Below the pieces are notes generated by a model, which did not search any database, was not told where the DNA came from, and worked only from the letters and a program-made list of their open reading frames with translations. Source: Rossellomorea marisflavi (GTDB taxonomy: Bacteria > Bacillota > Bacilli > Bacillales > Bacillaceae_B). From it: a stretch of DNA of 64,000 nucleotides. A program made the translations under genes and the position numbers. The stretch covers positions 2,158,001 to 2,222,000 of the forward strand of contig NZ_CP081870.1 of NCBI RefSeq assembly GCF_022170785.1. Direction: 5' to 3'. Below are positions 21,883-28,241 of this stretch, in pieces. Within the stretch, counting starts at the first letter, position 1; every line of letters begins with the position of its first letter.

Positions 21883-21964
21883 TCTTATTTAAGAGATTGG
21901 GACAACACAAAAAAGGTCATGACGAACAATATGAGTATGGCTTCTTTATACCGCTCATGATTTC

Positions 21965-22075
21965 CATGCAAGACTTCTTCGCTTTCCGCGGGTAGCCCGT
22001 GAGCCTCCTCAGCAAGCCAGTGGGGTCTCACATCATCTACTCCTCTTCCCGCCGGAGTCTTCATCTTGCACTCCA
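21965..22075. repeat. dispersed Bacillaceae intergenic repeat
   Basis: The segment containing GCTTTCCGCGGGTAGCCCGT, GAGCCTCCTC, GGGGTCTCAC and CCCGCCGGAGTCTTC resembles an imperfectly palindromic element I recall from many intergenic regions of Bacillus relatives. Its ends TGCAAGA (21967-21973) and TCTTGCA (22064-22070) are inverted. It occupies most of the 319-base gap between the GNAT gene and the convergent gene. No second copy was seen in this window. Confidence 0.55.
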
Positions 22076-22121
22076 ATCAACCGCTAGGAACAAGTAAATC
22101 GTAATGGTCATGAAACAAATC

Positions 22122-22162
22122 AAAAACCCGAATTATCTCAGACAAGATAGTTCGGGTTTTCC
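22122..22162. terminator. bidirectional terminator
   Basis: AAACCCGAATTATCT (22125-22139) pairs with AGATAGTTCGGGTTT (22145-22159) with one mismatch, with A and T runs on the two sides. It lies between the GNAT gene and the convergent Spo0M-like gene. Confidence 0.82.
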
Positions 22163-22201: not shown

Positions 22202-22588
22202 TTATTGAATCGTGACGTAATCCTCATCCACGCTATCTTGTCCTTCCTCAAACTTGAGCTTTGTCCTGAATAGGTACCTTGCTCCTGCGTGTTCAACCGG
22301 CAGATCATCTGGAATCTGGTAAACGAATGAATACATATCCTTCTCTTCAGTCTCAAGAGCATGAGTGATCGCCACGATCCTCGTATCGATTATCTCTTCT
22401 TTCTTGCCGTTCTCATAGATCATGACAAGCTGACATTCAATTTTTGTCAGGAGCTGGTCCACGATCCCCCCGTTGATATGGAATTTCCCTGATAGCTTTT
22501 CCCCTTTTCGGTAATGATCTTTGGGAAGGGTCAAATCGATCATTGCTGAGCCGACACCGTTTAAGGACATGTATTTTCGCAGTAACAT
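22202..22588 (-). CDS. half-length Spo0M-like protein (riboswitch-controlled)
   Basis: A 128-residue protein matching only the N-terminal arrestin-like lobe of Spo0M: GVGSAMIDLTLPKDHYRKGE, then LSGKFHINGGIVDQ and a beta-rich tail ending in DYVTIQ. B. subtilis Spo0M has about 258 residues, so this is half size. AAAGGAGGAG precedes ATG 22588; upstream in-frame codons run through the riboswitch and are not coding. Spo0M modulates sporulation and cell-envelope processes in B. subtilis. The gene is alone between its own riboswitch and a terminator. A second half-length paralogue is at 27575-27967. The link between Mn2+ sensing and this family is discussed as a finding. Confidence 0.78.
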   Translation of the reverse strand: MLLRKYMSLNGVGSAMIDLTLPKDHYRKGEKLSGKFHINGGIVDQLLTKIECQLVMIYENGKKEEIIDTRIVAITHALETEEKDMYSFVYQIPDDLPVEHAGARYLFRTKLKFEEGQDSVDEDYVTIQ

Positions 22589-22616
22589 AGGGCTCCTCCT
22601 TTTATTTATTGAACGT

Positions 22617-22757
22617 AAAAGACCTTTACCAAGAAGAGATGCCACATTTAGCCACATACTTCCGGTAAAGGTCTCGCTAACAACCATGTTGCCGATGAAG
22701 CCGGGGGTCTTGACCCCGTAATGACGACCTCATCGTATAAGCTACTCCCCTTTATGG
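22617..22757 (-). promoter_or_regulatory. yybP-ykoY manganese riboswitch with terminator
   Basis: The minus strand carries the core of this family: AAAGGGGAGTAGC (22753-22741), then GTCGTCATTACGG, CCGGCTTCATCGGCAACAT and GCGAGACCTTTACC (to 22664). TAAAGG and CCTTTA close the outer stem P1. GACCTTTACC (22673-22664) also pairs perfectly with GGTAAAGGTC (22630-22621), which is followed by TTTT, giving a terminator. P1 and the terminator share a strand, so ligand binding should prevent termination: an ON switch for Mn2+. Consensus recognition is direct; the switching model is inferred from pairing. Confidence 0.88.
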
Positions 22758-22772
22758 GATTCAGTTGAGATT

Positions 22773-22801
22773 ATCATAAGGAGAAATATCTATTCTGTCA
22801 A
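22773..22801 (-). promoter_or_regulatory. promoter of the riboswitch transcript
   Basis: TTGACA (22801-22796) and TATGAT (22778-22773) on the minus strand are 17 bases apart. Transcription would begin near 22766, about ten bases before the aptamer. Confidence 0.8.
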
Positions 22802-27537: not shown

Positions 27538-27576
27538 AAGGGTGTTCCGGTTGAACCGGAACACCCTTGGTTTTTT
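27538..27576. terminator. bidirectional terminator
   Basis: AAGGGTGTTCCGGTT (27538-27552) pairs perfectly with AACCGGAACACCCTT (27554-27568), then GGTTTTTT. It serves the nucleotidyltransferase gene and the convergent Spo0M-like gene. Confidence 0.9.
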
Positions 27577-27967
27577 AATCAAGTATGATTTGGAAGCTGT
27601 CATGATCTTTTCGATGCATGCCTTCCTCAAAAATGAGACGCGTAACAAATTTATACGAGATGCCCTCTTTACTCGGAGGGAATGTATCTGCCAGACGGCA
27701 GGCAAATTGGATTTTTCGTTGCTCTCCTGCTTTCATAATGGAAGAGCTCAGGATTGTATTCTGGTGAAGGATGGATGAACACTCGGTCTTTTCATTGTAT
27801 TGAAGCAGATCCGTCTCTATCCTTTTCAGCTTCTGGTCGACTTTACCGCCGATCAATTCGTATTCCCCTTTAATGAGTTCTCCTGGACAATAGGCAGAAC
27901 GATGCAATACAAGATCGATCTTCGCAGCACCGATCCCCATCTTACACATCAACTTTGCAAACATCAT
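27575..27967 (-). CDS. half-length Spo0M-like protein 2
   Basis: A 130-residue protein, again only the N-terminal arrestin-like lobe of Spo0M: MGIGAAKIDLVLHRSAYCPG and KGEYELIGGKVDQKLKRI are close to the start of B. subtilis Spo0M. It shares the end RLIFEEG..SFQI with the copy at 22202-22588. ATG 27967 or 27964 follows GAGGGTG; the longer upstream frame has no ribosome site. Its own promoter lies about 60 bases upstream and there is no riboswitch here. It may act with, or compete with, full-length Spo0M, but that is speculation. Confidence 0.75.
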   Translation of the reverse strand: MMFAKLMCKMGIGAAKIDLVLHRSAYCPGELIKGEYELIGGKVDQKLKRIETDLLQYNEKTECSSILHQNTILSSSIMKAGEQRKIQFACRLADTFPPSKEGISYKFVTRLIFEEGMHRKDHDSFQIILD

Positions 27968-28033
27968 TCTCACCCTCGCTTTCTTTATAATATTTATCTG
28001 ATCATGGGCAGAATTATCCTCTAACAAAGCTAT

Positions 28034-28062
28034 ATTGTAAAGAAAGAAATCAACGATGTCTA
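28034..28062 (-). promoter_or_regulatory. promoter of Spo0M-like gene 2
   Basis: TAGACA (28062-28057) and TACAAT (28039-28034) on the minus strand, 17 bases apart, each one base from the sigma-A consensus. Confidence 0.6.
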
Positions 28063-28241
28063 CACTAGTTTTTCGACATTTTTCGATTAAGCTCACTTAC
28101 CTCATGAAAATATAAAATATAATGGAATAGTTGTAAAATAGAGGTAGATTAATAGGGTGACTTTCTATACAATAGGAAGCGGAAGAAGTCTTATCTGCCG
28201 GACGCGCAGGTAGTGAATATAACGTACAAAGGGGTTATCGA

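Follow-up and report, generated by a model that had tools for sequence, protein, structure and literature searches.

Manganese riboswitches of the yybP-ykoY class (RF00080) are described, in the accessible part of the structural literature, as four-way junctions that include a helix P2 and in which an adenosine of loop L3 contacts the Mn2+ ion (UCA41 in the L. lactis structure, ACA48 in that from X. oryzae) (PMC6754395). In L. lactis, according to the available text on this switch, antitermination is set during transcription with metal, and a strand of helix P1.1 is shared with the terminator (PMC11087558). On the protein side, excerpts from work on TerC proteins attribute Mn2+ efflux and the metalation of exported enzymes to MeeF and MeeY and report that both co-purify with SecDF, FtsH and FloA (PMC10550928). 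FtsH and FloA were also pulled down with B. subtilis Spo0M, along with Spo0A, FtsZ and many division, cell-wall and sporulation proteins, in the available portion of the Spo0M study (PMC5325327); these shared partners thus come from full-length Spo0M and from pull-downs. In yeast, arrestin-like adaptors act on the manganese transporter Smf1, as far as the available text goes (PMC2810449).

The window analysed here, the whole 64-kb stretch of Rossellomorea marisflavi DNA, harbours a member of this riboswitch class on the minus strand, the strand of all features of the unit described below. A relaxed RF00080 search of 361 bases gave a match at 22650-22753 (38.9 bits, E 2.7e-9), and a covariance model (R1), built from 30 sequences (alignment A3, the window being one row), placed the aptamer at 22664-22756 with 100.5 bits, as the sole match up to E 10 in the 64 kb. 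The L1 motif GGGGAGUAG resides at 22742-22750, and the L3 motif GUCGUC-A offers a putative Mn2+-sensing adenosine at 22722, equated here with A41/A48 from the UCA context given in the accessible part of PMC6754395. Both motifs, including the adenosine, are present in 30/30 rows of A3, the invariance of L1 being partly by selection, as the rows were picked by this very motif. Across the 30 sequences, 11 of 26 aptamer pairs changed on both sides and 98.8% of cells were paired; none of 500 shuffles scored as high, and pairing did not exceed 55% when the structure was slid. Helix P1.1 forms standard pairs in every one of the 30 rows and is almost invariant, so covariation tells little about this helix. 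On sequence grounds the aptamer probably senses Mn2+, the ligand that we infer here. A sigma-A-type promoter-like site (TTGACA-17-TATGAT, 11/12 consensus matches) precedes the aptamer at 22773-22801; as the pattern scan found 3 such sites in the stretch versus 1.9 expected, its presence is no proof, and by eye similar TTGACA/TATGAT pairs precede the aptamers of several relatives.

The 3' strand of P1.1 (CCUUUA, 22666-22671) is common to the aptamer and to an intrinsic terminator (22617-22674, T run at 22617-22620), whose stem of 11 bp is formed by the arm AGACCUUUACC (22664-22674) pairing with GGUAAAGGUCU (22620-22630). CCUUUA can therefore pair either with the 5' strand of P1.1 (UAAAGG, 22749-22754) or with the terminator arm, an overlap of aptamer and expression platform that predicts an Mn2+ ON switch. 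Without Mn2+, the CCUUUACC strand would enter the terminator and transcription would stop, while an Mn2+ ion lodged between L1 and L3 would keep the strand in P1.1 and let transcription read through. The isolated terminator stretch folds at -30.3 kcal/mol, and the whole leader reaches -64.3 kcal/mol with the terminator versus -45.9 kcal/mol with P1.1 forced, in a calculation that ignores co-transcriptional folding and metal. As the terminator is favoured by 18.4 kcal/mol, the antiterminated state must form during transcription with metal bound. The gene behind the switch is followed by a terminator-like stem-loop with a T run (22121-22160), recognized by direct reading of the sequence, which ends the unit; a terminator pattern scan with a loop limit of 8 listed neither this stem-loop nor the long-looped terminator of the switch. 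Thus, the earlier note was right to read a yybP-ykoY switch here, with its P1 strand shared with a terminator and with a single gene, encoding a half-length Spo0M relative, ahead of the next terminator.

Many relatives carry two terminator-like hairpins, one behind the other, whose arms resemble each other. This C-G-C-G strand pattern was seen in 57 of the 70 leaders examined among the best 80 of 98 named loci, the other 13 having other patterns; L065, whose protein is 99% identical to that of the window, has one hairpin. In two-terminator leaders, P1.1 formation may free the 3' arm of the first hairpin, which in turn would disarm the second. Three terminator-like hairpins with like arms lie serially 3' of the aptamer in L126.

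The aptamer of the window lacks P2 and, as such, is a three-way junction, which we file as a variant of RF00080. It has in common with the class the L1 motif, the L3 sensing adenosine, helices P3/P3.1/P4 and the terminator-shared P1.1, and differs from it by the missing P2, the low score, a target that is not an exporter and, in many named loci, the two-hairpin leader. Of the 76 core-pattern aptamers that the best 80 of 98 named loci carry on their plus strand, 75 have a spacer of 13 nt separating the L1 motif from the L3 motif (the exception, L113, has 23 nt), whereas all 30 high-scoring aptamers of the genus have a spacer of 23-27 nt and a P2 hairpin. TerC lies 3' of 28 of these 30 P2-bearing aptamers, L018 and L031 being without it. 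The short-spacer form is also that of the best 30 order-sample loci of the P2-less model, all with 13 nt, a model that favours such aptamers; its matches occur in at least 114 of 120 order genomes, while half-Spo0M occurs in 35. We rejected the idea that P2 loss is specific to half-Spo0M, as aptamers without P2 were likewise seen in front of TerC by itself and of other genes. In L157, L159, L161 and L180 they precede kinase-like (FSELAQSV...) and DedA-like membrane ORFs, both names being putative. Two P2-less aptamers in series were matched by the model 5' of half-Spo0M in L136, L142 and L199. A second motif in L089, L104 and L112 was rejected as evidence of tandem aptamers, the model matching one place in each, and apparent short-spacer aptamers in L009 and L011 proved to be false pattern matches inside P2.

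This variant scores below the Rfam gathering cut-off of 45 bits. A gathering-level RF00080 scan of the entire 64-kb window listed nothing because the 38.9 bits of the aptamer do not reach this threshold, and 0/33 gene-linked RF00080 matches in the genus attain it, so that surveys at that cut-off would miss aptamers of the window type. Even the relaxed search found RF00080 upstream in only 4 of 12 motif-bearing named loci at E<=0.01 (L082, L117, L126, L142) and, of 10 loci that have no motif near the gene, in 4 (L113, L129, L130, L133), with a match on the opposite strand in L144. Owing to this weakness of RF00080 on the P2-less variant, most locus counts given here rest on model R1 and the core motif.

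The controlled gene occupies 22202-22588 (coding 22205-22588) and encodes 128 residues plus the stop, starting from the ATG at 22588 behind a ribosome-binding site AGGAGG at 22595-22600, a better reading than an alternative ORF of 161 residues. The product matches PF07070 with 70.1 bits (cut-off 23), over profile positions 1-135 of 213 only, and is thus one lobe of 128 residues compared to the two-lobed, 252-residue chain 5cl2 of Spo0M, which resembles it in the arrestin-type beta sandwich and differs by its second lobe, as well as in the riboswitch control and metal-gene neighbours of the half-length form. The structure predicted from 49 sequences (pLDDT 85.8, pTM 0.77) has seven strands and an N-terminal helix, and its best PDB match is indeed B. 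subtilis Spo0M 5cl2 (TM 0.80 by query, 26% identity), followed by ARRDC3, TXNIP, beta-arrestin and VPS26 along with some unrelated beta sandwiches; the model is thus a beta sandwich matching arrestin N-lobes, and the subfamily profile matches residues 4-128 of the 5cl2 chain. The N-terminal helix is conserved and has basic residues (MxLRKYMSL), and our guess is that it might contact the membrane. Values of dN/dS against the two nearest relatives (0.003/0.106, ~0.03; 0.057/0.572, ~0.10) indicate that half-Spo0M of the window clade is under purifying selection. The genome also encodes a full-length Spo0M, which shares 29% identity with the window protein in the corresponding part, and a second half-length paralogue (27575-28096, minus strand, ~5 kb off; PF07070 68 bits), neither with an Mn2+ aptamer; a match resembling this paralogue was present in 28 of 36 genus genomes (E<=1e-20). 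A 161-bp intergenic repeat at 21935-22095 has 42 matches in the genome including itself, 71-100% identical.

To look for RF00080 matches upstream of Spo0M-family genes had been proposed in the earlier note, and this search was fruitful at two taxonomic levels. Among the 36 genomes of the genus, each of the 33 genes of the half-Spo0M class was preceded, at a distance of 62-439 bases, by a same-strand RF00080 match, and the three genomes without the gene (G001, G020, G022) were also without a linked aptamer, each having only one P2-bearing aptamer. This complete linkage and the joint absence argue that the arrangement of switch and gene is no accident; at random, a given gene would be expected within 1 kb of one of 6 such aptamers with a probability of ~7e-4. 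In the order sample (120 genomes, drawn evenly), 35 genomes carried the gene, in 43 copies at E<=1e-25, 30 of them with an aptamer upstream, including L218 and L222, which have broken reading frames and were omitted from the tree, and 13 without the switch; at E<=5.2e-37 the proportion was 26/28. Four genus genomes, which contribute 8 of the 43 genes, belong to the order sample as well, and the 36 genus genomes share species with the named loci, so the samples are not independent. In the best 80 of 98 named loci, a same-strand match of model R1 was located upstream, up to ~1.5 kb away, in 75, including 29 that served as rows in building the model and so necessarily match it; the core motif was counted in 70; in three loci the aptamer lies 0.9-1.5 kb upstream with TerC between. 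No upstream aptamer on the same strand was found by the model in L110, L122, L137, L143 and L144, the contig of L122 offering 300 bases only. One of the 75 matches is a visibly decayed aptamer that has lost the L1 motif and lies 5' of half-Spo0M in Cytobacillus firmus AMY 5.1.1 (L111:2048-2143).

One group (support 93/86, not starred) took in 26 of 28 linked genes in a tree of 41 order copies with a very long outgroup, the linked L202 and L217 standing outside it and four unlinked genes lying between. The linkage label required 2 changes on this tree, compared to a mean of 11.3 after shuffling, and 0/500 shuffles were as low. By this phylogeny, the riboswitch-linked half-Spo0M genes are mostly one subfamily, set apart from full-length Spo0M. 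The branch leading to the window protein is long (1.27).

The neighbours of half-Spo0M were counted with three profiles built for this analysis (FBPB, TERC, DUF1232), Pfam being run on few representatives. TerC follows within ~1 kb downstream on the same strand in 13/30 linked but 0/13 unlinked order loci and in 20 of the best 80 of 98 named loci, with three more (L113, L130, L133) having it upstream. Within the genus it lies behind half-Spo0M in 4/30 loci, the window not being one of them. The window genome has one other Mn2+ aptamer, a P2-bearing one preceding a YkoY-type TerC, and a second TerC without an aptamer. TerC of the YkoY/MeeY type (PF03741, TIGR03716) therefore belongs to the same regulon and, in some species, is located just downstream; it is, however, an integral membrane exporter or metalation factor, not a homologue of half-Spo0M. 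In many relatives a small, basic, FbpB-like ORF of ~40-45 residues intervenes between the switch and half-Spo0M; it was seen in 18/30 linked versus 0/13 unlinked order loci, in 27/30 genus loci (absent only from the window and the two relatives closest to it) and in 51 of the best 80 of 98 named loci, the commonest of the three neighbours. This ORF matched PF13040, the Fur-regulated basic protein family, in 4/4 representatives (41-51 bits, cut-off 25); unlike FbpB proper, it sits behind an Mn2+ switch and scores poorly with NCBIfam FbpB (cut-off 60), for which one of two representatives gave 27.6 bits and the other no match. The only PF13040 gene found in the window genome (61723-61836, plus strand) is not behind an Mn2+ aptamer. 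A DUF1232 protein follows in 29 of the best 80 of 98 named loci, with Pfam run on three representatives.

What the computations show is the aptamer and its overlap with the terminator, the gene with its conserved linkage, the subfamily and the fold. Taking these together, we favour, with a probability of about 60%, the interpretation that high Mn2+ acts through a P2-less riboswitch to switch on an arrestin-fold protein of one lobe, within an Mn2+-excess module that would comprise half-Spo0M, TerC of the YkoY/MeeY type, the small and basic FbpB-like protein, and DUF1232 proteins. Points that weigh against this interpretation are the 13 of 43 order copies that lack the switch, the low number of genus loci (4/30) with TerC behind half-Spo0M, the many other proteins pulled down with Spo0M, and the strong folding preference for the terminator.

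The earlier note had ventured that the arrangement could connect metal status to a sporulation-related protein, on the general ground that Bacillus sporulation requires Mn2+. Mn2+ status might then reach sporulation through the Spo0M-like protein, as the membership of the window protein in PF07070 would suggest, along with the expression of the TerC genes meeY and yjbE in sporulation, reported in the available part of PMC10550928, and the pull-down of Spo0A by Spo0M. Yet Spo0M itself is not confined to sporulation in the accessible text of PMC5325327; full-length Spo0M is a separate gene of the same genome, without Mn2+ aptamer; and the neighbours retrieved by the three profiles, no sporulation profile being among them, are TerC, FbpB-like and DUF1232 proteins. 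With TerC in 13/30 linked versus 0/13 unlinked loci, a manganese role is supported and a sporulation link is not, and since the switch also precedes TerC, FbpB-like and DUF1232 genes and the linked genes stand apart from full-length Spo0M, we regard the proposed connection as unlikely. The same note had reasoned that an exporter gene lost from between switch and gene would make the arrangement an accidental leftover, the switch having formerly served an exporter or the FbpB-like gene, with half-Spo0M as a passenger. An intervening gene that the window clade is missing was indeed found, and the long branch of the window protein would fit as well. However, this gene is FbpB-like, not an exporter, and what the window clade kept is half-Spo0M, not FbpB, the former with a low dN/dS and with a linkage that is complete in the genus down to the joint absence from three genomes. 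As the intervening gene is no exporter and half-Spo0M is retained and selected, the locus is not a leftover in our view, and of all explanations weighed here we deem this one the least probable.

The frequency of the FbpB-like gene also invites the thought that half-Spo0M acts with this partner, or on RNA, in a metal-sparing post-transcriptional module with which TerC is merely co-regulated, FbpB being a protein of an sRNA pathway. Against this speaks the absence of the FbpB-like ORF from the window clade and from 12/30 linked order loci, as well as the arrestin fold, which is a protein-binding fold, and we consider such a module quite improbable, if a little less so than the leftover. An unlikely scenario, on a par with the sporulation link, is that a divalent metal other than Mn2+ is the ligand of the P2-less variant and the one that the module would serve. 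It draws on the lack of P2 in 75 of the 76 core-pattern aptamers noted above and on the opinion of Breaker's group, in the available part of their paper, that changed specificity is likely for some common yybP variants (PMC7266159). It is countered by the sensing adenosine and L1 motif, invariant in rows that were picked by L1, by the TerC genes that follow in part of the operons and behind the P2-bearing aptamer of the genome, and by the position of P2 away from the metal site in four-way-junction structures, as we read the accessible part of PMC6754395.

Returning to the Mn2+-excess module, the data suggest, at the level of sequence comparison, a role of half-Spo0M in manganese homeostasis rather than in spore formation. 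The protein may be an adaptor at the inner face of the membrane for the membrane protein of the module, its partner most likely being TerC or the FtsH/flotillin/Sec complex that co-purifies with TerC. In light of the co-purification of both TerC and Spo0M with FtsH and FloA and of the adaptors acting on Smf1 in yeast, we infer an Mn2+-induced membrane adaptor; the yeast proteins, arrestin-fold proteins on a metal transporter in the available account (PMC2810449), are an analogy only, being eukaryotic and ubiquitin-dependent. More specifically, and tentatively, for we would sooner bet against this version than on it, an Mn2+-induced single-lobe bacterial arrestin could dock on a metal-handling membrane complex (TerC-FtsH/flotillin/Sec, or an Mn2+ importer) to tune its activity or turnover, under a three-way-junction aptamer with, in many species, two serial terminators. 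If true, such a docking arrestin lobe would be a bacterial parallel to the Smf1 adaptors. Within the literature that could be searched, we found no report linking Spo0M with yybP-ykoY or TerC and, judged by titles and the openings of abstracts, none linking it in this way with manganese or connecting FbpB with an Mn2+ riboswitch, though the gene tables of the founding riboswitch papers might list one; a broader search with arrestin and DUF1232 proteins likewise brought up no such link.

The conserved regulation described here adds an uncharacterised protein subfamily to bacterial manganese biology and suggests for relatives within PF07070 a role other than sporulation that can be tested. That an FbpB-like gene is part of so many of these operons may point to a connection of Mn2+ excess with iron-sparing regulation. 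Finally, with a P2-less variant of a major riboswitch class lying below the Rfam cut-off, the regulon of this switch in bacilli is likely under-annotated.
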